From an uncultured Prevotellaceae bacterium (GTDB lineage: Bacteria; Bacteroidota; Bacteroidia; Bacteroidales; Bacteroidaceae), in NCBI GenBank assembly GCA_947166655.1, contig CAMVFC010000022.1:1-36786 (forward strand): 36,786 bases of DNA, read 5' to 3'. Position numbers and translations under genes: made by a program. Below the pieces are notes generated by a model, which was not told the origin of the DNA, ran no database searches, and saw only the letters and a list, made by a program, of their open reading frames with translations. This document shows positions 18,787 through 36,524 of this stretch, in pieces. Each line of letters opens with the position of its first letter. Positions within the stretch are counted from its first letter, which is position 1.

Positions 18787-19152
18787 ATGAGGGAAACTAA
18801 ACAATTAACACGTTCTGAGTTTCAGGTAATGCAGATTCTGTGGACGCTGCCCGAAGAGGGTGGATTCACGGGAGACATCCTGGAGCGCTTCGCTGATCCA
18901 AAGCCTGCCTATACCACACTGGCCACATTCCTGAAAATCTTACACCGCAAGGGATTTGTCAAGTATCGCAAGAGAGGCAACAAACTCTACTACACGCCTG
19001 CCGTCGACAAGAAAACCTATGCCGAAATCTACTTCGCACCCGTACGCAACACTTTCTTCAACGGATCCATCGTTGACGAGGTGCGATACATTCTCGAGCG
19101 CGAGCAGCTGACCGACGACGAGCGTCAGGCACTGCGCGAACTCATCGGATAA
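18787..19152 (+). CDS. BlaI/MecI/CopY family transcriptional regulator
   Basis: LTRSEFQVMQILWTLPEEGGFTGDIL...TLATFLKILHRKGFV winged-helix pattern. Confidence 0.92.
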   Translation: MRETKQLTRSEFQVMQILWTLPEEGGFTGDILERFADPKPAYTTLATFLKILHRKGFVKYRKRGNKLYYTPAVDKKTYAEIYFAPVRNTFFNGSIVDEVRYILEREQLTDDERQALRELIG

Positions 19153-19211
19153 AAACCTCTCCATACAGAAAAACAGCCACTGCAGGCTGAGGATTACAGA
19201 CAGAACGACAA

Positions 19212-19250
19212 CGGACCACCCACCGAGCCATCGGAGGGGAGTCCGTTTTT
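19212..19250 (+). terminator. Rho-independent terminator after blaI
   Basis: CGGACcacCCaCCGA-GCCA-TCGGaGGggaGTCCG followed by TTTTT. Confidence 0.7.
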
Positions 19251-19492
19251 CGGTCTTATAGACGGCACCGGTGCCGCTGCCCTCCTGCAGCATTCGCCCG
19301 CCAGACGGGCGATGCCCGCCGCGCTCTCCGGCCCGCCGCTCTCCCGTCTGCAAACAAAAATACGTGACAGCTGATTGAGTGGCAATCTGCTATCACGTAC
19401 CCTGTCGGAAAGAGGCGATGACATAAGTGTGCAATCTCGTGAGAGCAAGTATTGATTATTAGGCAGTTAAGTTGTTGGGAAATGTTGTTTTT

Positions 19493-19963
19493 TCAAATTT
19501 TTGTCCCCAATTCGGCACGAGACAAGGGGGATATGCCTGCCTTTAGGCAGGCAGCTTGTAGTAATGAGTACTCTTCCAACAGCTGATTGTTCGTGTCAAC
19601 CAGTCGGAAATAGGCCTCACGCAGCCGACGGATCTCATCACGGGCATCTGCAAGGTCCTGACGGTAAGCCATACACAGCTCTTTATAGTCATCCCCTTTT
19701 GGACGAAAGAAACTATGCCCTAAAGTGTCGACATCGTCACGCAACGGAGAACCCTCACCCGTAAGAAGGTAGTCTTTATTAACTGTCGGATACATTTCAA
19801 TTATTTTGGACACGTCTTCTGATGAGATCCCGTCGCTTTTTATTTTGCCAAGCGAATTGACCCATCCAGCAGAACGTCCAATGCTCAAAGACAACTGCCG
19901 CATGGATATTCCCAGTGCTTCGCCGACGGCCATTAGGCGCAGCTGTATCATCTTTTTTGCCAT
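19493..19963 (-). CDS. XRE/CI-like repressor of the phage-like element
   Basis: AVGEALGISMRQLSLSIGRSAGWVNSLGK...YPTVNKDYLLTGEGSPL typical of Bacteroidales phage repressors; divergent from early genes. Start at MAKKMIQ. Confidence 0.75.
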   Translation of the reverse strand: MAKKMIQLRLMAVGEALGISMRQLSLSIGRSAGWVNSLGKIKSDGISSEDVSKIIEMYPTVNKDYLLTGEGSPLRDDVDTLGHSFFRPKGDDYKELCMAYRQDLADARDEIRRLREAYFRLVDTNNQLLEEYSLLQAACLKAGISPLSRAELGTKI

Positions 19964-19989
19964 AGATATATAAAATTTTGGATAAATAT

Positions 19990-20020
19990 TTTGATGTATC
20001 GAATATATTATATACTTTTG
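19990..20020 (+). promoter_or_regulatory. Early promoter with palindromic operator candidate
   Basis: TTTG (19990-19993) - N19 - TACTTTTG (20013-20020) matches the Bacteroides -33 TTTG / -7 TAnnTTTG pattern; imperfect dyad GTATcgAATATATTatATAC at 19996-20015. Confidence 0.7.
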
Positions 20021-20069
20021 CCAAAGTTTTCTATGTTTCTGCCACAAATATACAATTTATTTCAATTAT

Positions 20070-20336
20070 ATGGTGCAACATAAAATTTATTTTTTCGACA
20101 AAGCTTACGGCAAGGTGCCTGTGTCTGAGGTGAAGAATGTGCGAGAGGAACTGATCGCAGTCATTTCCCCTGGTAGGATCTCGACATTTTACAAGTACCT
20201 TAGCTGCGGTTGCCGAGACATCCGGCTTCCTTTGTTCGAGGCAATCACAGAGGTCTTCGTACGCCATGGCATCCCTGCCAAAAAAGTATGGCGTACCGAA
20301 CTTATCGAAGGATCCCTTAAACAAGAATCAGTATGA
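20070..20336 (+). CDS. Small HTH-like early protein
   Basis: 88-aa ORF directly downstream of the early promoter; overlaps the next ORF start; helical HTH-like pattern. Confidence 0.6.
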   Translation: MVQHKIYFFDKAYGKVPVSEVKNVREELIAVISPGRISTFYKYLSCGCRDIRLPLFEAITEVFVRHGIPAKKVWRTELIEGSLKQESV

Positions 20337-20758
20337 ACCGTGTCAAAGGCTCCCGCAGCTGGAGTGCTGAAGAAGATGAGATCGTACGGCAAAACGCCGG
20401 GATGATGTCGTTTGCCGACCTCGCTGACCTGCTGCCTGGACGTTCGGCCCTGGCCGTCCAGCTTTATATATACAGACGGAAATATCCTATCCGGCGTGTG
20501 CTGAAACGTCCCATAGTCAAGCTGATGCTTCGCACTAAATTTGGCGACGAAACGCTTTTCACGCCCAACAAGGCGTTCTACGCAAGAGCAGGCATGAGCA
20601 GCGTGCGATTCAACCGACTGGCACAGGGCTACACGCAACCGACGCAGGACGAGATCATCAAGTTGTCTCGGGCACTCAATATGCAGCCGGAAGAGATGCT
20701 GCAGCTGCAGGATGCGACGCAACTGGACTTGTTCGAACAGATGAAGGAAGGAAAATGA
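20333..20758 (+). CDS. Putative SANT/Myb-like plus XRE-like DNA-binding protein
   Basis: N-terminal SRSWSAEEDEIVRQNAG..SFADLADLLPGRSALAVQLY; C-terminal YARAGMSSVRFNRLAQGYTQPTQDEIIKLSRALNMQPEEML. Confidence 0.65.
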   Translation: MNRVKGSRSWSAEEDEIVRQNAGMMSFADLADLLPGRSALAVQLYIYRRKYPIRRVLKRPIVKLMLRTKFGDETLFTPNKAFYARAGMSSVRFNRLAQGYTQPTQDEIIKLSRALNMQPEEMLQLQDATQLDLFEQMKEGK

Positions 20759-20776
20759 AAACAAAAAACTTAAAAT

Positions 20777-20998
20777 ATGAGGACAGACTATAGCATACAT
20801 CCACCACATAACAACTACGTGGCAACTCTCACTATCAGAGGCACAAAAAATGACTTCGTTGCCATAGGGCTAATGCTCCAGAAATGTTTGGAGGATCCAT
20901 CAACGAGCAAGGAAGACCTCGAAGAGCATAAGATAATCTCGGAGATACTGGAAGAAGTTGATGCAGTTGTCAACTATTTTAACGATATAAACATATAA
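20777..20998 (+). CDS. Hypothetical small protein
   Basis: 73-aa ORF in the co-directional early cluster. Confidence 0.5.
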   Translation: MRTDYSIHPPHNNYVATLTIRGTKNDFVAIGLMLQKCLEDPSTSKEDLEEHKIISEILEEVDAVVNYFNDINI

Positions 20999-21010
20999 TA
21001 GATAAAGAAA

Positions 21011-21238
21011 ATGGAAGGATATAGGATTGCAGACTTCGAACAGGCTCTACCGGCTGGAGCTGTAATTGACGAAGTCGTCTACAAAAGCAAGGCCGGACTG
21101 CACGTGAAATATGTACATGGGCAGGTGCAGGATGTCTCGACGATACGGGTCACCTGGGATGACGACGGCAAATGCTACAAGAGGACCAACTGGCAGCGAC
21201 TACGGCAGTTTGATTTGAAGCTGAAGCCTGGTGCTTGA
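21011..21238 (+). CDS. Hypothetical small protein
   Basis: 75-aa ORF, overlaps the start of the primase ORF. Confidence 0.5.
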   Translation: MEGYRIADFEQALPAGAVIDEVVYKSKAGLHVKYVHGQVQDVSTIRVTWDDDGKCYKRTNWQRLRQFDLKLKPGA

Positions 21239-24203
21239 TTCCCTGATTTCAAAAATCACCCCCCCCGATATGATCAAGAAAGAAAATGTCCTGAACAGGA
21301 CCGACGGAGGATTGAAGATCCTCCTGGACTACTACCCTCAGGCCGAGCAGGTGGTGGGGACGAAAAATAAGTTCCGGATGCGCCGCGACGAGAGGACACC
21401 CAGTGCCACCATCCGGCAGAAGCAGGACGGAACGTGGGTGGTTACAGACTTCGGCGACGACGGGCACGAGATGAATGCCATCGACGTGGCCATGAAGGAG
21501 GACCGGCTGTCCTTCCGCGAGGCGGTGCTGCGCCTGGCAGCGAGATATGGGGTGTCGGACGAGCTGAAACGAGAGGTGAACCGCCCTCGAGTAGAGGAAC
21601 GCGCTGCCAAGCCGGACGAGAAGGAGGGCGCGGAGTTCTACGAGCTGAACGAGGAGATGACAGACGAGGAACTGCGCCTGCTGGGGCCGCTGGTGACGCA
21701 GGAGCACGTCGACACGCTGCACTGGCACTCGGTGAAGTGGTGGGCGCGGGTAAAGGACCGGCGGGTGAAGGTGAAATACTCGACGCCGACGTTTCCCATC
21801 TTTCTACGCGAATGTGTCGTCAAGGAAGGGAACGAAGGCGCACAGACAGAACGGTTTTTCAAGATCTACGAGCCGCTGAACTACGACAAGGGGTTCCGCT
21901 TCAAGTACTACCCGGCAGGCGCTAAGCCCCGACGATACGTGAATGGGCTGTATGAGCTGCGACAGGCATACCGGAAATACAATGCAGAGGAGGAAGCGGC
22001 GTTCAAGAACGATCCGCGGAACGAGGACAAGCCCTACAAGGAGAAGAAACTGCCCGAGGCCTTCATCTGCTCGGGCGAGAGGGACGCGCTGTGCGTGCGC
22101 TCGCTGGGCTACTGGCCGCTGTGGTTCAACTCGGAGACGTACAACGTCGACGAGAGAGAGATGAAGGAGATCATGAAATACGTCGAGGTATTGTACAATA
22201 TCCCGGACATCGACGAGACAGGCATCCGTCGGGGCACACAGCTGGCCCTGCAGTACATCGACATCCACACGATATGGCTGCCACAAAAGTACATGGCGGG
22301 GTTCACGGACATGCGCGGCAAGGGGTACAAGGACTTCCGCGACTGGATGGAGGCCAAGGACAACCAGGGGCCGAAGGCATTCCGGCAGCTGCTGAACATG
22401 GCCATGCCGGCGAAATTCTGGTGGTCGAAGCTGAACACTCGAACGAATCAATGGGACCACCAGATCGATACGGCGTGCCTGCATGAGTTCCTTCGCCTAA
22501 ACGGCTTCCAGACGCTGCATGACGACGATGTCGCGGCACCACAATACATACACATCAACGGCAATACGGTCAGACGCATCAACGCGAAGGATATCCGGGA
22601 GTTCATCATCAGCTGGGCGTCCAGCCACTACCTGCCCCGCGACATACGCAACCTCATCCTCAACAGCCCTAAGATACAGGGTCAGGCCCTGGAGAGCCTG
22701 GAAGAGGTGACGCTGGACTTCAGTAACTCAACGGCCTGCAGCCAGCTGTTCTTCTTCGAGAACACGACGGTGAAGGTAACGGCAGCCGGCATCGAGGACG
22801 GTGCAGCCGGACACTACGTCTGGGAGAAGGACGTCCAGCCGCACCGCCTGACGCTGATGGACGACATGTTCCGCATCGCCCGCGAGAAGGACGCCGAGGG
22901 CCGGGACGTCTGGGATATCGAGGTCTTCAGCCCGTCGGGGAAACCGGTGGGCACCGTGGCGTCGAAGTTCCTGGGCTACGTGATCAACTCTAGCCGGATA
23001 TACTGGCGCAAGGAGCTGGAGGAGAACCTGGCAGGAATGGACCCGAGTGCTGCAGAGGCTTACCGCCAGGCACATCACTTCGACATCGCCGGAGAAGGGC
23101 TGACGGCGGAGGAGGTGCGCATCCAGAAGCAGAACCTCATCTCCAAGATCTTCGCCATCGGCTACCTGCTGCACCGCTACAAGGAGGCGTCGAAGACGTG
23201 GGCGCCGTACTGCATGGACAACAAGGTGGGGCAGGACGGCGAATGCAACGGGCGCTCAGGCAAGAGTTTCCTCATCAAGAGCATCTCGACGCTGATGAAG
23301 ACGGTGAAGCTGAGCGGCCGCAACCCTCGCCTGATGGACAACCCTCACGTATTCGACCAGGTGACGCGCCACACAGACCTGCTACTGGTGGACGACTGCT
23401 CGCAGTACTTCGACACCGGCCTGCTGTACGACGTGATCACGGGCGACATGACCGTCAACCCGAAGAACAACCAGAGCTACACCATCCCCTATGCCGAGAG
23501 CCCTAAGATCGCCTTCACCACGAACTACGTTCCGATGAATTTCGCGCCCTCCACGGAGGCACGCCTGCTGTTCGTCGTGTTCTCGGACTATTACCACGAG
23601 AAGAGCCAGGAGAACGACTACCTGGAGAGCCGGAGCATCTACAACGACTTCGGAAAGGAACTCTACGGCCGCGACTACAGCGAGGCCGAGTGGAACGCCG
23701 ACTATAATTTCATGATGCAGTGCTGCCGCTTCTACCTCTCCCTGGCGCCGGAGAACCTGAAGCTGCAGCCGCCGATGGGCGACATCATGCTGCGCAAGTA
23801 CCGGGCGGACATGGGATCGAACTTCGAAGACTGGGCAGAGGTGTACTTCTCTCCGGAGAGCGGCAACCTGGACCGCTTCATCCCACGGTCGGAGGTCTTC
23901 GAGTGCTTCCGCCTGCAGACAGGCCTGCACAAATGGACACCTAACCGGTTCAAACGTGCACTTCAGGGCTTCGCACAGTTCCACCGCGACCGTCTTGAGC
24001 TGGACCCCGAAGAACTGCGCAACAGCAGCGGACGAATCATCAGAAAAGGCGCCGACGGCCGAACGACAGAGATGTACTTCATGCGCACACGCTCCGGACA
24101 GTTCGGTGACGCCGGATCCGAGACTCCGACTCAACAGTCACTACCCTTCTCCGCCCCAGAGGACGGAGAGATTGACTGGGATGCGATGCAATCAGATAAA
24201 TGA
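21231..24203 (+). CDS. Primase-helicase: CHC2-like N-terminus, TOPRIM, SF3 helicase
   Basis: CHC2-like RRDERTPSATIRQKQDGTWVVTDFGDDGHEMNAIDVAM (no Cys), TOPRIM-like FICSGERDALCVRSLGYWPLW...DIDETG, Walker A NGRSGKSFLI, Walker B DLLLVDDC, SF3 motif C KIAFTTNYVP. Confidence 0.88.
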   Translation: MLDSLISKITPPDMIKKENVLNRTDGGLKILLDYYPQAEQVVGTKNKFRMRRDERTPSATIRQKQDGTWVVTDFGDDGHEMNAIDVAMKEDRLSFREAVLRLAARYGVSDELKREVNRPRVEERAAKPDEKEGAEFYELNEEMTDEELRLLGPLVTQEHVDTLHWHSVKWWARVKDRRVKVKYSTPTFPIFLRECVVKEGNEGAQTERFFKIYEPLNYDKGFRFKYYPAGAKPRRYVNGLYELRQAYRKYNAEEEAAFKNDPRNEDKPYKEKKLPEAFICSGERDALCVRSLGYWPLWFNSETYNVDEREMKEIMKYVEVLYNIPDIDETGIRRGTQLALQYIDIHTIWLPQKYMAGFTDMRGKGYKDFRDWMEAKDNQGPKAFRQLLNMAMPAKFWWSKLNTRTNQWDHQIDTACLHEFLRLNGFQTLHDDDVAAPQYIHINGNTVRRINAKDIREFIISWASSHYLPRDIRNLILNSPKIQGQALESLEEVTLDFSNSTACSQLFFFENTTVKVTAAGIEDGAAGHYVWEKDVQPHRLTLMDDMFRIAREKDAEGRDVWDIEVFSPSGKPVGTVASKFLGYVINSSRIYWRKELEENLAGMDPSAAEAYRQAHHFDIAGEGLTAEEVRIQKQNLISKIFAIGYLLHRYKEASKTWAPYCMDNKVGQDGECNGRSGKSFLIKSISTLMKTVKLSGRNPRLMDNPHVFDQVTRHTDLLLVDDCSQYFDTGLLYDVITGDMTVNPKNNQSYTIPYAESPKIAFTTNYVPMNFAPSTEARLLFVVFSDYYHEKSQENDYLESRSIYNDFGKELYGRDYSEAEWNADYNFMMQCCRFYLSLAPENLKLQPPMGDIMLRKYRADMGSNFEDWAEVYFSPESGNLDRFIPRSEVFECFRLQTGLHKWTPNRFKRALQGFAQFHRDRLELDPEELRNSSGRIIRKGADGRTTEMYFMRTRSGQFGDAGSETPTQQSLPFSAPEDGEIDWDAMQSDK

Positions 24204-24336
24204 TTTTGTAATCCTTTCTTTAATTAGGCAATGGCCCTGGCTGGCACGTGAGTGTAGGCCGGGGCCTCTCGTATTCTTTCAGGGCGGGCGGCCACCGCCT
24301 CCGACCTCTCACACTCTTCCCTATTTTCACTCAAAA

Positions 24337-24590
24337 TTTTTGTAACTTTGTAACCAAGAGGGAAGGAAAAGCATAATCTTTTGAAAAAGAGTAAGAAAAG
24401 AGGGTTACAAATTCGGTTACAAATTCGGTTACAAATTCGGGGCGATTTGTAACCACACCCCGAAGGCTACAGCCGGACAATCCGGTTACAACTCCGTCAG
24501 GACCCGAAAAAAATGTAACCCCATATTTGTAACCTATCAGAAGCGCATAAGAATCAATATTTTACACGCATTTTTTCAAAAGGTTACAAA
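24337..24590. repeat. GTTACAA/TTGTAAC iteron cluster, candidate replication origin
   Basis: Three exact tandem 12-mers GGTTACAAATTC at 24403-24414, 24415-24426, 24427-24438; inverted ATTTGTAACC at 24445-24454 and 24525-24534; further copies near 24337-24355, 24484, 24513 and 24582. Confidence 0.85.
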
Positions 24591-24652
24591 ATTACAGTTT
24601 TTTTGCGTGATTTTATATCACCTCACGCACAAGTGCAGAATCTTTTTACTAT

Positions 24653-24660
24653 CTTTGCAC
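24653..24660 (+). promoter_or_regulatory. Promoter-like -7 element (TATCTTTG)
   Basis: TAnnTTTG within ttttttactatctttgcacgg, about 20-25 bp upstream of the ATG; coordinates approximate. Confidence 0.5.
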
Positions 24661-24678
24661 GGAAAACGAGATGGAATA

Positions 24679-25272
24679 ATGAAGAAAAACCGCTATATCG
24701 TCTGGATCCACGTGGCACCTTACGTCTGCCGATACCTGGTGGACAATTTCGGCGTATCTGACCCTGAGGTCAGGAACCTGGTGGACATTCGGGCCGATGC
24801 CCAGCTGATGGCCTTCTTCTCGCCACGCCTTGTTAAGGCTTCCCACCGGTACGACAGAAAAAAGAACGGTGCTCCATCGCGACACTATCGCACGGTTAAG
24901 GTGGGTCTCCTGATCTCAGCTGACCAATTCACACGCAGCGGATGGGCATTATCTCCGACAGACGAGGACGCGCTTGCCAAGCTATTGGAAAAAAGATGCC
25001 ACGGAATACTGATGGCATTCCTCGCCGGGTACTACATGCTCACAGGCGACCTGGCGGCCAGCATCAGGGCGTTCTACCGACGCTTCCACCAGACAGAGGA
25101 CACATGGCCTTACGACTCCATACGGAAAATATGGAACCGAACGTTCACACCTGCAGAGAAAATGTCGCTCAAAGATGACAAAATAGAACATTTCGTGGAA
25201 AAATTTTTGGTGAAGTTGTCCCAATTTGGGACAATATCAAAAAAAGGACTCTCATTATATGAAGAAGATTGA
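24679..25272 (+). CDS. Hypothetical protein adjacent to the iteron cluster
   Basis: Start at atgaagaaaaaccgc, preceded by TATCTTTGC promoter-like element; no family recognised. Confidence 0.65.
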   Translation: MKKNRYIVWIHVAPYVCRYLVDNFGVSDPEVRNLVDIRADAQLMAFFSPRLVKASHRYDRKKNGAPSRHYRTVKVGLLISADQFTRSGWALSPTDEDALAKLLEKRCHGILMAFLAGYYMLTGDLAASIRAFYRRFHQTEDTWPYDSIRKIWNRTFTPAEKMSLKDDKIEHFVEKFLVKLSQFGTISKKGLSLYEED

Positions 25273-25738
25273 TTTTGATTTCGACAACGTCGGCGGTCTC
25301 GCACACCTCTATCTCATTGATGCCTCCGGCCTGCTCAGGTGTGACGTGAATGTCAAGAATGGGCATGTGCGACCGGTCATCGCATCTGAGAATATGATTT
25401 ATGACATCGCAGTCTATGCGGGCGACAACTTCGCTTTCACCGAAAATCTCCTCGAAGAGGACACCGGCGAGGTGTATGACGTCGCGATCAGCGGCTTCAT
25501 ACCCAAAATGGACAACATTATGACCGTGGCCGAGATGGAGAGGAAGGAATGGATTGCCGTGCATCAGGATGCCAACGGCAACTTACTCATCTCCGGAACT
25601 AAAGAGATGCCGTTGCGCTTCATCAGCAATAAAACGACGGGGACCGCACCTACCCGAAATGCAACAGCGTTTACCCTCGTGGGGAAGCTGACATGCCCAA
25701 GCAAGGCGTGTGACAGCTGGGTTCTTAGCTCTAACTGA
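25259..25738 (+). CDS. Putative structural protein, divergent member of the DNVGG family
   Basis: DFDNVGGLAHLYLIDASGLLR..., C-terminal TTGTAPTRNATAFTLVGKLTCPSKA resembles TTGTAVTDKNNVPLRFQYSCPRK of the 28091 ORF. Confidence 0.55.
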   Translation: MKKIDFDFDNVGGLAHLYLIDASGLLRCDVNVKNGHVRPVIASENMIYDIAVYAGDNFAFTENLLEEDTGEVYDVAISGFIPKMDNIMTVAEMERKEWIAVHQDANGNLLISGTKEMPLRFISNKTTGTAPTRNATAFTLVGKLTCPSKACDSWVLSSN

Positions 25739-25770
25739 CGTTAAAAGAAGCTGTTTGCGTCTCAAAGATT

Positions 25771-25799
25771 ACGCTGCAGAGGTATTACCTTTGCAGCGT
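25771..25799 (+). promoter_or_regulatory. Putative late promoter -7 element inside a 29-bp near-palindrome
   Basis: ACGCTGCAGAGGTA-T-TACCTTTGCAGCGT, one mismatched pair; contains TACCTTTG (25786-25793), immediately upstream of the capsid cassette. Confidence 0.6.
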
Positions 25800-25821
25800 A
25801 TTATTATATATATATATATGT

Positions 25822-26934
25822 ATGAAACAAGCAGTCTTAAAGATCTACGGACCCATCGACAGCTACGGATGGCAACTGTACCGCGTGCGATCATTCCTCG
25901 CCGAACACGCCAAGGATGACGTCATCATCGATGTCAACAGCCTGGGAGGTGCTGTCAACGACGCCATGATGATATCAAAGGAAATTCAGGAACACGGCAA
26001 CGTGACAGTGCGCCTGCTGGCGTTCTGCGCCAGTGCCGTGACATGGATGGCCTATGGCGCCAAACGCGTGGAGATTGCCGACGACGCCCTGTGGCTCTGT
26101 CATCAGGCTTCCGTCCGCGTGGATATCTATACCTCGATGAACGCTGATGAACTGGAGCAGGCCATCTCGGACCTGCAAAAATCGAAGAAAATGGCGGAAG
26201 CCATGGATCTCATCATCGCACGCAAGTACCTGAACAAGGCTACTGCCAACGGCAAGGAAACCAACCTGGCGAAGGTACTCGACCTCATGAAGGAGGAAAA
26301 ATACCTCACCGCTCAGGAGGTCCTGGATCTGGGCTTCGTAGACGCGATCATCACTGGTGCCAAGAGCATGACGCAGGAAGTGCGGCAGTTCGTGGTCGAG
26401 AACCACGCTGAACTGCAGATGCCTGACGTGCCTGCCCCTGCAGCACAACAGGAAGAGGAGGGACTGGTGACACGCGTGCGCAACATCGTGGCGGAACTCT
26501 TCGGTACTCGACAGCCGGAGAAACCTATAGAGAACAAAGAACCCGACAAACAACCCCAAAACCAAAGTGAAATGAAGAAACAGTTTATTCTCATCAACGC
26601 GCTGCTCGCCGTAGCCACGCTGGAGGCAGGCGAGGACGGCAAGGTCACGATCACACAAGACCAGCTGCAGACCATCGAAGATGCACTGGCACAGAAGAAG
26701 ATCGCAGACCAGGCTGTCAAGGAGGCCACAGAGGCTCTCGACGCCATCAGCGATAACGTGAAGTCCATCGAGGGACTGAAGAACAAGGTCATGGCTGTGA
26801 AGACCGTGCTCGACCGCACACCTCTCATGGCTCCTGTCACTACCACTCCCCAGCAGACAGAGGAGCAGAAGAAAGCAAAAGAGCTGGAAGAGTCCGCAAA
26901 GGACGAAGTTAACCAGTATGTCCGCAATCTCTAA
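25822..26934 (+). CDS. ClpP-like prohead protease fused to scaffold-like C-terminal domain
   Basis: YGPIDSYGW..DVIIDVNSLGGAVNDAMMI..LAFCASAVTWMAYGAK..LCHQAS (S49/ClpP-like) followed by a charged coiled-coil region; directly upstream of the MCP. Confidence 0.85.
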   Translation: MKQAVLKIYGPIDSYGWQLYRVRSFLAEHAKDDVIIDVNSLGGAVNDAMMISKEIQEHGNVTVRLLAFCASAVTWMAYGAKRVEIADDALWLCHQASVRVDIYTSMNADELEQAISDLQKSKKMAEAMDLIIARKYLNKATANGKETNLAKVLDLMKEEKYLTAQEVLDLGFVDAIITGAKSMTQEVRQFVVENHAELQMPDVPAPAAQQEEEGLVTRVRNIVAELFGTRQPEKPIENKEPDKQPQNQSEMKKQFILINALLAVATLEAGEDGKVTITQDQLQTIEDALAQKKIADQAVKEATEALDAISDNVKSIEGLKNKVMAVKTVLDRTPLMAPVTTTPQQTEEQKKAKELEESAKDEVNQYVRNL

Positions 26935-26956
26935 CGCTAAATAAATAATTATCAAA

Positions 26957-28072
26957 ATGGATCCAACTAAACCTATCGACATTACAGGGGTCATTGGAGC
27001 TGTAAAAAAGCACCAAGACCTGCTGGTTTCTGTCCGCGACAAGGATGCTGCAGCCCTGCTTAGTCTTTTCGCGTCGATCCCCGGTGTTAAAGACAGCATC
27101 GTCATTGGACGTACCGAGCTGGGCAGCGTGAGCCGTGGCTACACCGGCGAGTTTTTGGGACAACTGAAGAGCGGTGCCATCAAGCCTCGCACTCTTAAAG
27201 TATACCGAGTCGTCATGGAACTTGAGGACGAGCCAGAACGCCTCCGTCGCACGTATATTGCTGAAGTGTATGGACATATCGTTCCGAACACACACCCCTT
27301 CGAGGTCTGGCTGAACAACTACGGCATCCAGTGCGCCTCTGAGGACCTGGCAGCCGGACTGCTCTGTGCCATGCGCAACGAGGCGAAGCTGAAGGATGGC
27401 GTACAGTACGCCTTCGACGGACCACTCACCATCGTCGAAAAGGAAATCGCCGCCGGAGAAATCTCCGTGGCCAAGGGCAATATGTACACCACGGGCATTC
27501 TGACACGTGCCAACGTGGGCGACAAGTTGCTGGCTATGTGGCGCAGCCGACCCAAGAGTTTCCGCGACAAGCCCTCAGAGATGTGGATCAGCTCCGATGT
27601 CATGGACTTGTACACCGACTGGCTCGAGGATCAGGGCGTGCATGTCTCCGGTACCACGGGCGAGGCTACTGATGAGACTACCTATCTGCGTAATACGGGC
27701 AAGAAGGTAAAACTCGTCGAGGTGCCCTACATGCCTGAAGGATGTCAGTTCGTGCAGCTGATGGAGCCACGTACCATCTTCTATGGTTTCGACAAGAGCT
27801 CCGACATGAAGCAGCTGCTCCCCTTCGCCAGTGGCAACCCCTACCACTACACGGCGACGGGATCCTACCTCATCGGATTCCAGCTGGTGAGCATCAACAA
27901 GCTCATCTACTGCTGCAACGACCAACCCATCGTGACCTACACCGCCGCAACGGACACCGCCGGCAAGAAACCCATCGAAGAGGGGTGGTTTGTCAAGAAT
28001 GGTGACAAGTACGAGCTCTCAACGGACGAGAGCGTGCAGCAGGGCACCGACTACTATGTCCGTAATGTCTAA
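26957..28072 (+). CDS. Major capsid protein (HK97-type)
   Basis: 371 aa following the protease/scaffold; GILTRANVGDKLLAMWRSRPKSFRDKPSEMWISSDVMDLYTDWL and C-terminal FIGFQ-like region consistent with HK97-fold MCPs. Confidence 0.72.
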   Translation: MDPTKPIDITGVIGAVKKHQDLLVSVRDKDAAALLSLFASIPGVKDSIVIGRTELGSVSRGYTGEFLGQLKSGAIKPRTLKVYRVVMELEDEPERLRRTYIAEVYGHIVPNTHPFEVWLNNYGIQCASEDLAAGLLCAMRNEAKLKDGVQYAFDGPLTIVEKEIAAGEISVAKGNMYTTGILTRANVGDKLLAMWRSRPKSFRDKPSEMWISSDVMDLYTDWLEDQGVHVSGTTGEATDETTYLRNTGKKVKLVEVPYMPEGCQFVQLMEPRTIFYGFDKSSDMKQLLPFASGNPYHYTATGSYLIGFQLVSINKLIYCCNDQPIVTYTAATDTAGKKPIEEGWFVKNGDKYELSTDESVQQGTDYYVRNV

Positions 28073-28090
28073 CATCTAACAGATACAACT

Positions 28091-28636
28091 ATGTCAGAAT
28101 GTATACAACTGGCCGACCTGGAAGAGGCCATCGGATGCGCGGACATTGACAATGTTGGCGGTATCAAGATGAAGTTTCAGGTCGGATTCGCCGACGATGT
28201 GATCGCGTGGCCGAGCCTTCCCGGTCCTTCCGGCGGCTCCTTGTTGTCCTTGCTGCAGGCAGGCCAATGGGAGGGCGCACTGCAGATGAAGGCTGGTGCC
28301 TCACTGAAAACCGTGTATTTCACCGACGAGACCGGCGTTTTTACCATCACCATGCAAGGAGAGTCTGGCTGCGAGAGCTACCTCTATCAGCTGGATGTAT
28401 CGCGCGCCAAGATGGAGGCTGCCGTGTTCGGCCTTGAGAACGCCTTACGCGGACGAAAACTCGTCATCATCGTCGAAGACAAGAACGGTACGAAGTACCT
28501 CATGGGCGACGAGAAGTGCCCAGCACGCATGGTCGCTGCTGATGCCTCTACCACCGGAACTGCCGTCACAGACAAGAATAACGTGCCGCTGCGCTTCCAG
28601 TACAGCTGCCCGCGCAAACTTGTCTATGTTGGTTAA
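28091..28636 (+). CDS. Putative structural protein (paralog 1)
   Basis: DLEEAIGCADIDNVGGIKMKFQVGFADDV..FTDETGVFTITMQGESGCESYLYQLDVSRAKM; strongly similar to the downstream ORF. Confidence 0.7.
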   Translation: MSECIQLADLEEAIGCADIDNVGGIKMKFQVGFADDVIAWPSLPGPSGGSLLSLLQAGQWEGALQMKAGASLKTVYFTDETGVFTITMQGESGCESYLYQLDVSRAKMEAAVFGLENALRGRKLVIIVEDKNGTKYLMGDEKCPARMVAADASTTGTAVTDKNNVPLRFQYSCPRKLVYVG

Positions 28637-28648
28637 GTCTTCTCTATT

Positions 28649-28681
28649 CTGCAGTGCCCGTCTAATACGCGGGCACTGCAG
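28649..28681 (+). promoter_or_regulatory. Perfect 12-bp-stem hairpin between the paralogs
   Basis: CTGCAGTGCCCG-tctaatacg-CGGGCACTGCAG, no strong U-tract after it. Confidence 0.7.
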
Positions 28682-28707
28682 CCCTATAACTGTTATATAC
28701 CATAACT

Positions 28708-29622
28708 ATGACAAAAGACAACACCTGCTCGGCACTCGCCGACCTGGAGCCTGCCATCGGATGCGCTGAGCTCGACAACAGAGGTGGTATCGTCTCCGAG
28801 ATGCTCGTCGGATTTATGGATGACATGCTGGCGTGCGGAGGTATGCCCTATTCGCCTGTACGTTCCCTGTCACTTAAGGACAATGGAACCTTAGCCTCGC
28901 CGCCAATATGGAAAGCGGGAACACGCCCTTACCGGCTCTCTTTCACGGATGAGACAGGCACTTTCTCCATCACACCACAAGGAGAAGCAGGCGGTGAGAG
29001 CTACCTCTACCAGCTGGACATCATAAGGGCTAAAATGGGAGCCGAAATATTCGGCTTCGAGAACGCCTTACGCGGACGCGACCTCGTCATCATCGTCAAA
29101 GATAAGAACGGCACACGCTATCTCATGGGCGATAGCAGGACACCAGCACGCATGGTCTCCACGGACGCCAGCACCACAGGAACTGCCGTCACAGACCGAA
29201 ATCAATCAGTACTTCGATTCCAGTTTTCTTCGCCGCGCAAACTGGTCATCGGAGATGATCCTATTTACGAGGACCTCGAGGTCCATACAGAAGAATACAT
29301 CGATGATGGCATCCTTTATATGGAGGCAAACGGCGAGTGCAGAGTCTACTGTAAAAGTGCTCAACGGGGTGCCTATACATTCAGTTCTAGCGATTCCGAT
29401 GTCGCTACAATTGCAGATACCGCCAACTACGGTTCTTCCAGCGAGGCTGCAGCTGCTACCTCAGCAGAGGCTGTCATCACGTCTGTGGCTGCAGGCACTT
29501 GCACCATCACTATCAAGAAAGAATATGCTAACCTGGAATCGTCAACAACCAAAACCATTCAAGTCAACGTGTCGAGTGGAGATATCAAACCGCCCATCGA
29601 CATTCCTGGCGGCGGATGGTAA
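28708..29622 (+). CDS. Putative structural protein (paralog 2) with C-terminal BIG2/Ig-like domain
   Basis: DLEPAIGCAELDNRGGIVSEMLVGFMDDM...; C-terminal FSSSDSDVATIAD...VITSVAAGTCTITIKKEYANLESSTTKTIQVNV resembles BIG_2. Confidence 0.72.
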   Translation: MTKDNTCSALADLEPAIGCAELDNRGGIVSEMLVGFMDDMLACGGMPYSPVRSLSLKDNGTLASPPIWKAGTRPYRLSFTDETGTFSITPQGEAGGESYLYQLDIIRAKMGAEIFGFENALRGRDLVIIVKDKNGTRYLMGDSRTPARMVSTDASTTGTAVTDRNQSVLRFQFSSPRKLVIGDDPIYEDLEVHTEEYIDDGILYMEANGECRVYCKSAQRGAYTFSSSDSDVATIADTANYGSSSEAAAATSAEAVITSVAAGTCTITIKKEYANLESSTTKTIQVNVSSGDIKPPIDIPGGGW

Positions 29623-29632
29623 TTTTTGAGAT

Positions 29633-30514
29633 ATGATTACACAGAAAAACCTGCAGGATGCCATCGATTGGCTCCACACAACAAACAAGGATTTTGCCAC
29701 CGGTGTCGAAATACTCAGTCAGGCTGGATTCCGGCCGGCTGTCACACGGAAACTGAAACGCGATGGAGAAGGTGGACCTGATGCCTTCGAACGACTGACA
29801 TGGAACCTGAGGTCACTCGTCGCGGCGTATGGACGTGACGTCAACATAGAGGACACAGATCCCGTCCTCTCCGTCTTCGACGGGAAAGAGGCTCCGAAAG
29901 AACACGATGAAAGCCATCAGCTGGGCATCATGACACTCGCCTGCCAGATCGAAAAGGATGAAGTGCTCATCGAGGGCGAAAACCCAAGGAAGGTCATTAG
30001 TGAGTATGCCAACGCCTACCGAAGCCGCGAGAAAGCGATACGCCTCATGGGAGAGGTTGGCGAGCAGAATGACGAAGAGTCCATGACACGACGCAAACAG
30101 CTCTCTGACGAGATCGAGAGCCACACCGCCCTCATGGAAAGGCTCTATCCTCTCTATGAGAAATTTGAGAGTGGCGCAGACATTTCAGACGAAGACGTCG
30201 AGAAGGCTCTGGAGATGAACTCCCAAACCATTCCCGACACTACTTCTGAAAACTCTGTTGCCAACGACAGTTCTGCTGCTCACACCTCCGAGGACCTCGA
30301 AGGCAAGAGCCGAGACGAACTGCTGAAGCTGAAGAAGAACGCACAGGTGCGCCTCCTTCGCACAGAGAACAAACTGCTCTACCAGAGCGAGAAAAAGCTG
30401 GAGGTTGAGAATCCGATGCCGCCAGGACCTGAACGGGTGAAGCTGGAGACACGGGTCGAGAATATCAAAAAGGATATCGAGGCTATCGACATGGCTATCG
30501 CCAAGTTCGGATGA
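29633..30514 (+). CDS. Hypothetical coiled-coil protein of the structural cluster
   Basis: 293 aa, charged coiled-coil C-terminus; overlaps the next ORF. Confidence 0.6.
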   Translation: MITQKNLQDAIDWLHTTNKDFATGVEILSQAGFRPAVTRKLKRDGEGGPDAFERLTWNLRSLVAAYGRDVNIEDTDPVLSVFDGKEAPKEHDESHQLGIMTLACQIEKDEVLIEGENPRKVISEYANAYRSREKAIRLMGEVGEQNDEESMTRRKQLSDEIESHTALMERLYPLYEKFESGADISDEDVEKALEMNSQTIPDTTSENSVANDSSAAHTSEDLEGKSRDELLKLKKNAQVRLLRTENKLLYQSEKKLEVENPMPPGPERVKLETRVENIKKDIEAIDMAIAKFG

Positions 30515-31101
30515 TCTACAGCATATCAACCCCAGAACCCACGCCGCCCGCACCTGCTTTAACTCCGACAACGGGCAGGATCTGCTCCAGCGACTTCGCT
30601 GACCGCAGTGATATGGTAGCTACCATGCTGCTCTCACCAGAAGGGCTTGGACAGATCCAGACTGGGCTGGAGAAACATTTCTACTCTAAAGGGGCTTTCA
30701 ACCTGGTGCAGCTCGTGCTCTACCTGCTTAAGCAGACAGGCCCGGCTCATGTGCTCCTCTCTTCCTACTCTATCGCCGAGGACAGCCTGGCAGCCCTCAA
30801 ACGAAGAGAAGAAAAGGGAGAGCTTCTATCGATCAGATTCCTCATCGACAACCGCGTGCGCAGCATCAGTCCTAAGCCATTCGCATACCTCGCAGAGGCA
30901 TTCGAAGGCAAGTACAGGTGCTGCGCACTCCACGCCAAGGTGGCGCTACTTTGGAATAGTGAGTGGCACGTCTCCGTGGTCACATCAATGAACGCGACTC
31001 ACAACCCCAAGCTGGAACGGGGCATCATCTATACCTCAAAGGATGTTTTCGACTTCGACCTCAAGATACTGAACGATGAATTTGAACAAGGAACAACTTG
31101 A
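30511..31101 (+). CDS. PLD-like (single HKD-type) domain protein
   Basis: CCALHAKVALLWNSEWHVSVVTSMNATHNPKLERG resembles HxK(x)n-N..E PLD half-motif. Confidence 0.6.
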   Translation: MIYSISTPEPTPPAPALTPTTGRICSSDFADRSDMVATMLLSPEGLGQIQTGLEKHFYSKGAFNLVQLVLYLLKQTGPAHVLLSSYSIAEDSLAALKRREEKGELLSIRFLIDNRVRSISPKPFAYLAEAFEGKYRCCALHAKVALLWNSEWHVSVVTSMNATHNPKLERGIIYTSKDVFDFDLKILNDEFEQGTT

Positions 31102-31360
31102 ACAGCTGGAACAGATGGGCTACACGCTTATCCCTCCTCAGCTGGCGGCCATCAACCTGGAGGTGAATGAGCTGGAGTTCCTGACGGAGCTGAAGACAGC
31201 CGGATCCGGAGTGCGGCAGGCTTATTATAGCGGATACCTACGCCAGCTCGTGGAGACGCGGCAGGCCATCGTCAAGGCGGCTCACAACGGAAGCAACCCA
31301 GCACAGGTGGAACTGCTGAAACTTATCAACAGAATGCAACAAGCCATCGACCATGCATAA
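31076..31360 (+). CDS. Hypothetical small protein
   Basis: 94-aa ORF overlapping both neighbours. Confidence 0.55.
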   Translation: MNLNKEQLEQLEQMGYTLIPPQLAAINLEVNELEFLTELKTAGSGVRQAYYSGYLRQLVETRQAIVKAAHNGSNPAQVELLKLINRMQQAIDHA

Positions 31361-31955
31361 AGGTGCTTTAGTTAAGAGAGGTGCACGCGCCATCGACGAG
31401 GAACGATTCGAGACTATACGGAACCATATTCTGGATCCCGAACAATTTCCTCTGCAGACAGTAGAGGAGGAACGGCAACTGAAGCGGGTGCAGCAGGCGG
31501 CAATGCTCATGCAGGAGTACCCTAATGAAGCACACGTCATCACACTCATGCTGCAGAGCCACCGCGTCAGCCGAACGCAGATCCGACGGGATATCGCCAT
31601 GGCTAAGGAACTCTTCAAGACGGACTTCACTTTCGACTGGGACTTCTGGCGCAGCTGGCAGATCAAGGACCAGCTGGAACTCATACGAGAGGCTAAAATG
31701 CGTGGCGACCTCCGCGAATGGAACAACGCCAAGAAGCTGCTCCACGAGATAATCGGCGAGAAACCGGAGGGAGGAGAGGATCCGCGCCGCATGGAACGCA
31801 ACATCTTCATGTTCCAGGTCATCAATGCCGACGGCCGCACCGTACAGATACCCATCGACCGACTGCGATATTCCGCAGAAGATGTGGCAACGCTCATAGA
31901 GTCTATGAACAACCCTATCACGGAAACACAGGCCGAAGAAATAATGAATAGCTAG
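31353..31955 (+). CDS. Putative terminase small subunit-like protein
   Basis: Position directly upstream of terL; HTH-like HVITLMLQSHRVSRTQIRRDIAMAKELF. Confidence 0.5.
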   Translation: MHKGALVKRGARAIDEERFETIRNHILDPEQFPLQTVEEERQLKRVQQAAMLMQEYPNEAHVITLMLQSHRVSRTQIRRDIAMAKELFKTDFTFDWDFWRSWQIKDQLELIREAKMRGDLREWNNAKKLLHEIIGEKPEGGEDPRRMERNIFMFQVINADGRTVQIPIDRLRYSAEDVATLIESMNNPITETQAEEIMNS

Positions 31956-31956
31956 C

Positions 31957-33690
31957 ATGAAAGAAGAGAACGTATGGGAAGAGGATATCCACGTCAACCC
32001 TGCACAGATGGCTTTCATGATGATGCCGGCACGGAACAAGTACCTCGTCTGGAGCCGTGGTACCGGCAAATCGTTCATTGTCGGAGCAGAGGTGGACGAG
32101 AACGTGCGCCTGATGCCACGAGGCATCACCACGCTGGCTCAGGCTACCTACGGACAGGCACTGACGAAGACGCTTCCGTCAACCTTCAAGATGCTGGAGA
32201 TGCTGGGCTACCGCAAATACGACCCAAAGACGGGCATCGGCGACTATGTGGTTTGCCGGCAGCCACCTGCAGGATGGTACCTGCCATACGAACACCTGCT
32301 CAGCTTCGAGCACTGTATCTCCTTCGCGAACGGACATGCCCTCTACATCCTCACTCAGGACGGCAACAGCCGAGGACCTAACGCCGACTACAACATCACA
32401 GATGAAGCCCTGACGCTGGACAAGGAGCAGTTCGACCAGGAGGTAGCGCCGACGAACCGTGGCAATGAACACGTCTTCGGACGGCTGTCACCCCACCCGC
32501 TGATGAAGCATCATGGCAATACGTTCCTCTCATCAATGCCCTATGAGCCGAAACAGAAATGGCTGCTGGAACCGGCCAAATATTACGAGGAGGAACGTGG
32601 CGTGCAGCTCTTCGACGTCTGGAACCGCATCGTCCGGCTGCAGATGACACTCGTGGATGCACGCCTGACAAATGATGCAGCACAGTTCCGCGAGGTGTGG
32701 AACGAGGTGCTGCGACTCCGACGACAGATACAACCCTTCGTCAGCCGCGACGGAACGCTGTTCATGCTGGCCAGCATCTTCGACAACATCGCTAACGTGG
32801 GCATGTCGTACATCATCAACCAATATAAGGTGATGGCAAAGCTGCAGTTCATGATCGAGATCCTGAACTATGTGGTCGACAAGATTGACCACTGCTACTA
32901 CCAGCTCTCTGATCAGCACAAATACTACCACGCCGACAACGATGCCTTCATCCGTGATTTCGCCGATGATACGAACTTCGCCTGGCAGAAACTCGCAGAA
33001 CGCGACAGTCGCATGGATGCCGACTGCAACCCATCGGAACCGCTCGAAGTATGCTTCGACTGGGGTTCTTCGGCATCGTTCATGGAGGTGGCACAGCCCT
33101 CGCATTTCGACTGGACGACGAAGATGCTGATGCCTGACCGCATCGTTGACAACACGATCAACGAGTTCTTCGTCAAGCGCGAGGAGGAACAGGACACCGA
33201 GGTCAATGCTCTCGTGGACCGCTTCGCAGAATACTACCGCTACCATACCAACAAACTCGTCATCTTCTACCGCGACCGCTATGGCGATGCACACCGGGCC
33301 AACAGCCGACGCACGTACAACGAACTGGCCATCGCACGACTGCAGAAGTACGGATGGAGGGTGGAGACACGTGCACACCGGGGCATGGAACCGCCACAAC
33401 ATGACAAGTATCTCCTGTGGTCATACATCCTCGCAGAGACCGACACACGCTTCCCCATCAAGCGCTTTAACGCTGTCCACTGCAAGTACATCCTCATCTC
33501 CATGAACAATACACGTGTCCGGCAGTCGCCCTCCACGGGCCGCTTCGAGAAGGACAAACGCTCGGAGCGCAACGACAGCATCCTGCCCGAGGAAGCTACA
33601 CACTTCGGCGACGTCGTGGACAAACGCATCTGGACCAAGTACGGCGACCTGCTGCAGAAACAGTACTCGTTCGTCGACGTGCGCCTGTGA
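31957..33690 (+). CDS. Phage terminase large subunit-like ATPase/nuclease
   Basis: KYLVWSRGTGKSFIVGAEVDENVRLMPRG Walker A; YNITDEA Walker-B-like; VCFDWGSSASF and VIFYRDRYGD nuclease-like acidic motifs. Confidence 0.8.
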   Translation: MKEENVWEEDIHVNPAQMAFMMMPARNKYLVWSRGTGKSFIVGAEVDENVRLMPRGITTLAQATYGQALTKTLPSTFKMLEMLGYRKYDPKTGIGDYVVCRQPPAGWYLPYEHLLSFEHCISFANGHALYILTQDGNSRGPNADYNITDEALTLDKEQFDQEVAPTNRGNEHVFGRLSPHPLMKHHGNTFLSSMPYEPKQKWLLEPAKYYEEERGVQLFDVWNRIVRLQMTLVDARLTNDAAQFREVWNEVLRLRRQIQPFVSRDGTLFMLASIFDNIANVGMSYIINQYKVMAKLQFMIEILNYVVDKIDHCYYQLSDQHKYYHADNDAFIRDFADDTNFAWQKLAERDSRMDADCNPSEPLEVCFDWGSSASFMEVAQPSHFDWTTKMLMPDRIVDNTINEFFVKREEEQDTEVNALVDRFAEYYRYHTNKLVIFYRDRYGDAHRANSRRTYNELAIARLQKYGWRVETRAHRGMEPPQHDKYLLWSYILAETDTRFPIKRFNAVHCKYILISMNNTRVRQSPSTGRFEKDKRSERNDSILPEEATHFGDVVDKRIWTKYGDLLQKQYSFVDVRL

Positions 33691-33739
33691 GGTGAACGAA
33701 CCGCACTTGGCTGCTGCTCTTGATGGAACCATAGCACAT
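33596..33739 (-). pseudogene. Truncated mirror copy of the 34454 ORF, running antisense into the terL 3' end
   Basis: MCYGSIKSSSQVRFVHLTGA versus MVQSIKSSNQVWHVHVTGI of 34454..34798. Confidence 0.6.
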
Positions 33740-33747
33740 ACATTCTT

Positions 33748-33774
33748 CCCCGTGACGTGAGTTGCGGGGTTTTT
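33748..33774 (+). terminator. Rho-independent terminator after terL
   Basis: CCCCG-tgacgtgagttg-CGGGG followed by TTTTTCG. Confidence 0.65.
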
Positions 33775-33870
33775 CGTTTCTATAGCCTGATGCCGGTTGC
33801 CGTCGCCGCCCTGTGTGATTCTCGGGCGGCTGCGCTGTGAGATCCACCACAGGCCTCGTGCTCCGCTCTC

Positions 33871-33948
33871 CTAACCCTGAATCTCTCTGTTTCTGGCCCT
33901 GAGGAGGCAGCGGCGGTGGCTGCAGGCACGGGAGCCGGAGGTCATGGA
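33871..33948 (-). pseudogene. Truncated mirror copy of the 34215 ORF
   Basis: SMTSGSRACSHRRCLLRARNREIQG* versus YMTSSFRTRSHRRCLLSNQFTVEIQD; approximate start. Confidence 0.6.
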
Positions 33949-34116
33949 GTTGTCGTCGTGAGTTTTTGGTGTGAATGAACAAACGACTTTTTCCGCTGCA
34001 AAGGTAATTCGCCGTCTTCCGCTGCAAGGATGTCCGGAGGACTTGGCTTCAATAATTATTTTCACACAAATAAGCCGTGCCCAGGGGCTGACTGATTTCT
34101 GCTGGCGCCCTGAAGG

Positions 34117-34545
34117 GTGAAAATAATTCTCTGCGTCCTTGCACCGATGCACCTGGCTTACCTTGGCAAAGCAACGTAAAAAATCTATTCATCCACCCTA
34201 AAAACTTCATCACAATGACAACTCCTTACATGACTTCCAGCTTCCGCACCCGCAGCCACCGCCGCTGCCTCCTCAGCAACCAGTTCACCGTCGAGATCCA
34301 GGACTTCGACGGAGATCAGATCACCTACGAGGTCTGCGCCGAATCTCACCACGAAGCTGCACGAGAAGCACACGAACTGGCCTATGCCGATGGCATACAA
34401 ATCAACATCATGACTATCTACGAATTCTAATAACCCTCTAAACATCTCACATCATGGAAAAGAATGTTATCATCGCAGAAATGGTTCAATCCATCAAGAG
34501 CAGCAACCAAGTGTGGCACGTACACGTCACCGGCATCGACAACCC
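34117..34545 (+). repeat. Right arm of the large inverted duplication (intact genes)
   Basis: See left arm; innermost exact inverted pair AATTATTTTCAC (34054-34065) / GTGAAAATAATT (34117-34128). Confidence 0.85.
34215..34430 (+). CDS. Hypothetical small protein (mirror-duplicated gene A)
   Basis: 71-aa ORF; 5' part and upstream region duplicated in inverted orientation at 33871-34065. Confidence 0.6.
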   Translation: MTTPYMTSSFRTRSHRRCLLSNQFTVEIQDFDGDQITYEVCAESHHEAAREAHELAYADGIQINIMTIYEF

Positions 34546-34798
34546 TGAGCTGCAGGGATACTGCAAGCAACCACTCGCCGCCATACGCCTGGCGTTTATC
34601 CTCAAACAACGTTCCGGCTATATGATCTCGGGCACATCCCTGCAGACACTCCAGCAGCTGTACAAGGCGTCGAAGCAGCCCGCAGAGGTCAAGCAGCCGG
34701 CAGAGCCTGAGGCCACTGTGCCCGCAGGTTCTCCCGAAGGGGATTCCACCCCGGCCAAGAAGACACGCCGCACAAAGCGAGAGAAGGCAGCCCAATGA
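34454..34798 (+). CDS. Hypothetical protein with basic Lys/Arg-rich tail (mirror-duplicated gene B)
   Basis: 114-aa ORF; C-terminal AKKTRRTKREKAAQ. Confidence 0.65.
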   Translation: MEKNVIIAEMVQSIKSSNQVWHVHVTGIDNPELQGYCKQPLAAIRLAFILKQRSGYMISGTSLQTLQQLYKASKQPAEVKQPAEPEATVPAGSPEGDSTPAKKTRRTKREKAAQ

Positions 34799-34815
34799 GG
34801 CTGCTTTCTCCGTAA

Positions 34816-35364
34816 ATGTATGACCAGCTAAAAGGAGATACGGCCATGCTGAAGTACGCACTCTATGATTACATCCCCCGCCGGCAACAACGCCGGGCCA
34901 CCTTCGAGCAGCAGGAGACGTGCCGCCGGATCCTCGACTTCAAGGACGGCCGCAACTACGCCAAGCAGTGGGCGGCCACGGAGATAGGACGAGCACTACA
35001 CGCGGCGAAGCTCAGCGAAGTGGTCATCGTGTGCGTGCCGGCAAGCTGCCAGCACACATACGTGCGACGCTACAAGAAGTTCTCGCAGATGCTGTGTGCC
35101 ATCCTCGGGACGGCCAACGGCTTCGATTGCATTGAAGTCATCGGCCATCGCAAGAAGGCACACCATGGAGCACCCAGGGACGAGCGCCTGGTCCAAAACG
35201 TCGCCATCAGCAGCAGCCTGCGCGGACGCAAGGTGCTGGTCATCGACGACATCTACACCACAGGCGCGACATCGGATGCCTTCATCCGACGGCTCTGCGC
35301 CGTGGGCGCAACGGTCTGCGGTGCTGTGTTCCTGGGCAAGACCCGCCAACACAGGACCGCATGA
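34816..35364 (+). CDS. Phosphoribosyltransferase (ComF-like type I PRTase)
   Basis: VLVIDDIYTTGATSDAF PRPP-binding loop; IVCVPAS; alternative start at 34846 preceded by aaaggagat. Confidence 0.8.
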   Translation: MYDQLKGDTAMLKYALYDYIPRRQQRRATFEQQETCRRILDFKDGRNYAKQWAATEIGRALHAAKLSEVVIVCVPASCQHTYVRRYKKFSQMLCAILGTANGFDCIEVIGHRKKAHHGAPRDERLVQNVAISSSLRGRKVLVIDDIYTTGATSDAFIRRLCAVGATVCGAVFLGKTRQHRTA

Positions 35365-35400
35365 CCAATAAGCTGCCGCAACCCCAAGGGGATACAGAGA

Positions 35401-35486
35401 GTGTCGCGCCTACCGTTCCCGCCCACCCTGAGCCGTTCGCAGTGGCCAGGGTCATTGCTCATGCCCGGGGACGGTAGGCGCGACAC
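35401..35486. repeat. 86-nt nested inverted repeat / structured element
   Basis: Outer arms GTGTCGCGCCTACCGTTCCCG (35401-35421) and CGGGGACGGTAGGCGCGACAC (35466-35486), 20/21 complementary; inner stem ACCCTG-a-GCC / GGC-CAGGGT (35425-35452). Confidence 0.85.
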
Positions 35487-35832
35487 CACAGCGCACAAAC
35501 GCCACGCTCCCGCAGACACATCGCCGTACAGGTCACGCTCACACTGCTTCTGACTGTCCACGCCTGCGCCGCGCATGAAGCTGGTGCCCGTGACTTGCAC
35601 GGTGAAGAGTCTGCTGGGACTGGCTATCGAGAGCATAGGACTATGCACTCGACTCCGCACCGCAGCCACAGGACTGCGCCCGCGCTGCGGTGTAGGACAA
35701 GGCTTGCTGCACTGCGCTCTGATGCGGTGCCCGCAGTTGTACCGAGGGGGAGGGTGCCCGTCATATTTCCTATATGACTGCGGAAGGGGCTGCGGCGCGG
35801 CTTAGGGCGCGTCGGACTTCACTGTGAAAAAA

Positions 35833-35860
35833 AGGCCTCATTTCTCAAAAATGGAGGCCT
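35833..35860. terminator. Bidirectional terminator-like hairpin
   Basis: AGGCCTCATTT...AAATGGAGGCCT flanked by A-run and TTTT. Confidence 0.6.
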
Positions 35861-36001
35861 GTTTTCCGCATACTCAGTGGGTTCTCCGTTTCTTTTAACG
35901 TTCATTAGCTTTTAGCCATCCGAGGCAGTTTCTGCAGTGTCGCCGGCCCCAAAGCACCCTGCGCCGCTCCCAGGGCGTTGGAAGCGGCGCAGAAAGAAAA
36001 A

Positions 36002-36029
36002 ACGCCCTCAGCTTCACAGCCAAGGGCGT
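36002..36029 (-). terminator. Terminator downstream of hicB (also usable on + strand)
   Basis: ACGCCCT-tggctgtgaagctg-AGGGCGT followed on the minus strand by TTTTTTCTTTC. Confidence 0.65.
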
Positions 36030-36095: not shown

Positions 36096-36524
36096 TTATG
36101 CGTATGTCAGGACCGGGCGCTCAATAAGCGGCACAGTTCCAATGTCTGCAAGGAATTTCTTCATACCAGCATGAATCTTGTTGAGGGTCGCCTGACGGGG
36201 TTCCTTGACGGCACTGGCATATTGTCGCAGTTGTGCGGCGTTCATGCCGATGTACTTGGCAAAGGCGGAGATGTTAAGGGGATAGTAGTCGAAGAAGGCA
36301 CCGACATCAAATTTGAATGTGAATTCCAATTCCGGCATCGTCTCACCCCTTTCCGCCAGAATCTCGCGTGTTTCTTCCTGTGCGACATAGAGGTCATCCA
36401 TGGCCTCTTGCGCCGTCCGTCCGTACCCCGCAAGGCCGAAACCGGGAAGCTCGTCAGCCACAAAACAGGAGAAATTCATATCCCCTTTTCCCTTCTCTAC
36501 GATAACTGTCACTTTCTGTGCCAT
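36096..36524 (-). CDS. hicB: HicB family antitoxin with C-terminal HTH-like region
   Basis: VTVIVEKGKGDMNFSCFVADELPGFGLAGYGRTAQEAMDDL pattern; start at MAQKVTV. Confidence 0.8.
   Translation of the reverse strand: MAQKVTVIVEKGKGDMNFSCFVADELPGFGLAGYGRTAQEAMDDLYVAQEETREILAERGETMPELEFTFKFDVGAFFDYYPLNISAFAKYIGMNAAQLRQYASAVKEPRQATLNKIHAGMKKFLADIGTVPLIERPVLTYA

Follow-up and report, generated by a model that had tools for sequence, protein, structure and literature searches.

An apparently tailless phage element in an uncultured Prevotellaceae genome is very probably part of a temperate siphovirus prophage cut by a contig end

Introduction

Among described phages, the element analysed here compares best with a group of isolates in which the head genes are followed by the terminase and only then by the portal and tail genes. 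Leef and Ingeline are integrase-bearing phages shown by electron microscopy to be siphoviruses (PMC8776804). Polaribacter phage Leef_1 (Helgolandviridae, MT732473) has the circular gene order integrase, DNA-binding regulator, primase/TOPRIM, ClpP protease/major capsid protein (MCP), a homologue of the structural paralogues described below, terminase large subunit (TerL), portal, adaptor, tape measure and tail-end proteins. Flavobacterium phage 6H and Cellulophaga phage Ingeline_1 (Duneviridae) share the order from protease through TerL, portal, adaptor and tape measure to integrase. Because the head and terminase module precedes the portal in phages of this type, a contig that ends after TerL looks tailless. 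Here we describe such a contig, on which a reading of the sequence alone had noted replication, capsid and terminase modules but no recognizable portal, tail, integrase or lysis genes, and had offered three explanations: a capsid-encoding satellite, a decayed prophage, or a prophage with its remaining genes outside the analysed DNA.

Results

The window, that is, the whole stretch of DNA that was analysed, is 36,786 bp long and constitutes an entire contig of the assembly (G000:C22, hereafter C22), so that no bases follow position 36,786. C22 stops inside phage sequence, as DNA homology to the phage contigs G152 and G157 reaches its last base. Within it, the genes proposed from the sequence (repressor, primase, short repeats, ClpP-type protease, MCP, paralogues and TerL) were borne out by family and profile searches (Table 1). 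The proposed left edge of the element, 19493, lies close to the attachment core described below, whereas the proposed right edge, 35364, is no edge at all, since homology to G152 and G157 continues to the contig end. Searches for a portal, tape measure, integrase or lysin inside the 36,786-bp window found none, and an Rfam search of 19000-36786 gave no match. The apparent lack of tail, integrase and lysis genes is correct for the window and does not hold as biology: these genes look missing because C22 ends inside the phage, and the remainder lies on a second contig or in relatives. We conclude, with a probability of about 0.96, that these 17.4 kb form the left part of a prophage, a temperate siphovirus of a Bacteroidales host, cut by the contig end.

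Table 1 Features of the element in the window.
Feature	Position	Strand	Evidence or remark
attL region	19357..19418	.	core 19398-19418 TACCCTGTCGGAAAGAGGCGA, duplicate of tRNA-Pro(CGG) 3' end at C71:8138-8211
Repressor-like regulator	19493..20047	-	phrog_8 transcriptional regulator, E 0.0011; profile match to Ingeline HTH regulator ORF, 4.6e-13
Small early gene, opposite repressor	20070..20336	+	ORF; no family match
Myb/HTH-type early regulator	20333..20758	+	phrog_323, 2.1e-5; Pfam HTH/Myb below cut-off
Primase-helicase	21231..24203	+	phrog_28855, 2.9e-23; profile match to Leef_1 DNA primase/TOPRIM, 1.3e-189
Short direct repeats (iteron-like)	24398..24496	.	just after primase
Small structural-type gene upstream of protease	25259..25738	+	gene call; type by position only
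ClpP-type head maturation protease/scaffold	25822..26934	+	phrog_94, 2e-22; Pfam CLP_protease, 2.3e-8
MCP	26957..28072	+	profile match to annotated MCP of Microcystis phage Mea-Yong924-1, 8.8e-12
Structural paralogue 1	28091..28636	+	62% identical to paralogue 2; Leef_1 homologue, 4.7e-15
Structural paralogue 2, extra C-terminal domain	28708..29622	+	phrog_476 major tail protein, residues 230-288 only, E 0.0026
Conserved gene, not portal	29633..30514	+	kept in relatives, whose portal gene is separate, elsewhere
Endonuclease-like protein, packaging cluster	30511..31101	+	phrog_16945 endonuclease, 1.4e-15
Small gene	31076..31360	+	profile match to Ingeline ORF, 1.1e-5; same-position gene in Mea-Yong924-1 annotated terminase small subunit
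TerS-like gene before TerL	31353..31955	+	position only; no family match
TerL	31957..33690	+	tblastn: annotated TerL of Mea-Yong924-1/2 (4e-58); also Leef_1, 6H, Ingeline_1
Phosphoribosyltransferase-fold accessory gene	34816..35364	+	Pfam Pribosyltran, 4.2e-7; kept in closest relatives
HicB-like antitoxin, by neighbourhood	36096..36524	-	HTH below cut-off; beside HicA
HicA toxin gene, one base short of contig end	36606..36785	-	Pfam HicA_toxin, 1.4e-12

In the early region, the primase-helicase probably starts at 21270. The repeats that follow it have an 18-nt unit: at 24398-24439 three copies are spaced 12 bp apart, and a fourth copy lies at 24479. This array is a possible replication origin. 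Among the head genes, the MCP profile also matched the Leef_1 ORF next after the protease of that phage (5.8e-6). The structure model of the MCP was of low quality (pLDDT 55.6). Phage capsids and encapsulins made up most of its PDB matches, which all lie above E 0.001 and lend weak support to a predicted capsid identity. By eye, the product of the small gene upstream of the protease resembles those of the two paralogues. The gene at 29633-30514 was considered as a portal and rejected, since relatives have a homologue of it plus a distinct portal gene. The product of the endonuclease-like gene appears phospholipase-D-like by eye; in most relatives the gene precedes the terminase genes, and 6H and Mea-Yong924-1 have homologues of it. 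After TerL, a long imperfect inverted repeat occupies 33683-34534, with 70-88% similarity between arms of up to ~200 bp and no Rfam match, and a HicAB-like toxin-antitoxin pair (36096-36785, minus strand) sits between TerL and the contig end, with a HicB-like counterpart in G152.

The other end of the prophage was found in the same genome on contig C71 (17,374 bp), which encodes, from its phage end, a protein of 192 aa, a tape measure of 1,256 aa (phrog_28, 3e-33), a 607-aa protein and a tyrosine integrase (phrog_1, 6e-31, and Pfam Phage_integrase); these products are homologous to those of the right end of the phage and include a tail-end protein. Positions 19357-19418 of the window match C71:8197-8258 over 62 bp at 87% identity, the last 21 bases exactly. 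In the window this 21-base core lies just left of the repressor, and the C71 copy lies ~55 bp beyond the integrase, overlapping the 3' end of a tRNA-Pro(CGG) gene (8138-8211, ARAGORN). The exact core common to both contigs, located on C71 in tRNA-Pro, indicates that C22 carries attL and C71 attR. Three same-genus loci (L067, L071 and L073) have the unoccupied site: a homologue of the host gene at 17525-18637, then tRNA-Pro(CGG) on the minus and tRNA-Phe on the plus strand, and no phage. The orientations of these tRNA genes are those on C71 and match the arrangement predicted for an unoccupied site. L071 also keeps, between the host-gene homologue and the tRNAs, a BlaI-like gene that in the window lies left of attL. 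A further same-genus locus, L065, has both tRNAs in the opposite orientation and was left out of this count. Given the att duplication and the unoccupied site in relatives, C22 and C71 are best read as two flanks of one integration, and the locus has the hallmarks of an integrated prophage: a tyrosine integrase, direct-repeat att sites, one of them within a tRNA gene, and an unoccupied site in relatives.

These data bear on the proposal of a capsid-encoding satellite (capsid-forming PICI-like or P4-like), which would form its own heads and take tails from a helper. The window alone fits such an element, having head and packaging genes without a portal or tail. However, a satellite of this kind has no tail genes of its own, whereas a tape measure, a tail protein, an integrase and the second att site are present on C71 in the same genome, and all relatives that are long enough carry portal and tail genes in unchanged orientation. 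The tail genes on C71 together with the portals and tails of the relatives refute the proposal for this lineage, and we regard a satellite as scarcely credible.

Comparison with uncultivated relatives indicates what lies past the break. A nearly identical element is present on three viral contigs, with a TerL 93-94% identical to that of the window, and the TerL of a fourth is 88% identical. Past the homologous break point, G151, G152 and G153 carry, in the same orientation, portal, adaptor, tail genes, amidase, tape measure and integrase, with family matches for the adaptor (Pfam DUF6712), the amidase (Amidase_2, 1.7e-18), the tape measure (phrog_28, 1.4e-33) and the integrase (phrog_1, 1.9e-31). 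Portal and tail genes thus follow in relatives whose TerL is 88-94% identical, which disposes of a tailless element and bears out the third of the original explanations, a prophage that continues beyond the window; its right end is on C71, and in relatives the other genes follow directly. In G151 no host DNA separates the integrase from the adjacent repressor, the arrangement that an excised circle would have. The IMG/VR contigs G151, G152, G153 and G157 and the prophages of ruminant-gut Bacteroidaceae MAGs (JAFXTO010000004.1 and JAFSNB010000043.1) are alike in TerL (88-94% identical) and gene order; all are uncultivated, and their tail-fibre-type and integrase genes diverge more in sequence. 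Further TerL relatives, at 71-91% identity, occur in MAGs of ruminant and other gut Bacteroidaceae, Prevotella and Paraprevotella. One of them, the Paraprevotella MAG contig G198:C5 (126 kb), a more distant relative than G151-G153, has protease, MCP, TerL, portal, adaptor, tape measure, tail protein and integrase collinear on a single contig at 57.9-88.1 kb, where a tRNA-Met flanks the integrase on its outer side and is followed by host-type genes. G152 (L045:7663-12736), and in part G157 (L055), also contains a diversity-generating retroelement (DGR) with a reverse transcriptase (phrog_1423, 4e-15); in G152 its 109-base template repeat and the 3' end of a gene encoding 1,069 aa mismatch at 14 positions, each of them an adenine in the template.

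The portals of the relatives are putative, named from homology to annotated portals (VirFam-named in the records) and from position: the portal homologue matches the annotated portals of Leef_1 (2e-30) and Mae-Yong924-2. A search of the portal profile against PDB sequences gave no match, Pfam gave no meaningful match on the tested portals, including those of 6H and Mea-Yong924-1, and an AlphaFold model of the portal (pLDDT 31) was set aside as evidence. As Pfam misses even the portals of these two phages, the absence of a motif in this lineage says nothing about the absence of the gene.

By comparison with G152, ~20 kb is missing between C22 and C71, and this segment is expected to hold the portal and lysin. 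No portal match was obtained in any of the 140 contigs of the window's own genome, although the identical query does find the portal in relatives. The same genome contains a second, distant TerL-like match (G000:C134:1411-2022), possibly from another prophage. The failure to find a portal in the assembly would fit a decayed or internally deleted prophage, in which this copy lost the ~20 kb that separate HicAB from the tape measure region. Yet the break falls at two contig ends, both in phage sequence, and not at a sequenced deletion joint; the bin is 82% complete; the main phage genes of C22 and C71 are full-length open frames; and in a close relative the missing part holds the DGR with its repeats, a type of region that may break assemblies. 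Decay or deletion is therefore very unlikely. More improbable still is an internal deletion that removed the portal and lysis genes and left this copy to persist as a head-making remnant, mobilized by an intact relative. The prophage cut by the contig end is thus the reading that we retain, and we infer that the middle ~20 kb of this copy is intact.

Isolated phages place this prophage in a known type. Profiles of the integrase, regulator, primase (1e-189), protease, MCP, paralogue, TerL, portal and adaptor match Leef_1 genes in the same circular order, although the Leef_1 TerL is only ~31% identical to that of the window. A LuxR regulator and a pectin lyase set Leef apart (PMC8776804), whereas an amidase and HicAB-like genes, joined in some by a DGR, occur in the relatives described here. 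6H and Ingeline_1 have homologous TerL, portal and adaptor, and 6H also a homologous tape measure and amidase, but their TerL proteins are 22-24% identical and the window MCP profile has no match in either. Leef_1, 6H and Ingeline_1 are annotated complete tailed phages with the same gene order, a further finding against a tailless element. The Microcystis phages Mea-Yong924-1 and Mae-Yong924-2 have homologous TerL, MCP, endonuclease-like gene, paralogues, portal and adaptor; in contrast, their portal and adaptor stand before the protease and not after TerL. The Leef_1/6H/Ingeline order (protease-MCP-TerL, then portal-adaptor-tail-tape measure-integrase, closing on repressor-primase) was found here mostly on close relatives, the portal-to-lysin segment being unassembled in the window's own genome. 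TerL identities of 22-31% to the Helgolandviridae and Duneviridae phages suggest that these prophages may form a separate group.

Discussion

We propose that a tyrosine integrase inserted the prophage into the 3' end of tRNA-Pro(CGG). The integrated element would read attL, repressor, early genes, primase, protease, MCP, TerS/TerL and HicAB up to the contig break, and thereafter portal, adaptor, tail, amidase, tape measure, tail-end protein, integrase and attR. The whole prophage is estimated, by comparison with relatives, at about 45-50 kb. By analogy with the isolated relatives, it may make siphovirus particles.

The element is very probably an ordinary temperate siphovirus prophage of known type, truncated by assembly. 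Its identification takes away a spurious candidate for a novel class of capsid-encoding satellites. A contig ending within a prophage imitates a tailless element wherever the head and terminase genes precede the portal and tail genes. The comparison also connects prophages of ruminant-gut Bacteroidales with an isolated flavophage of marine origin, Leef_1, and the annotation of its proteins can serve to name theirs.
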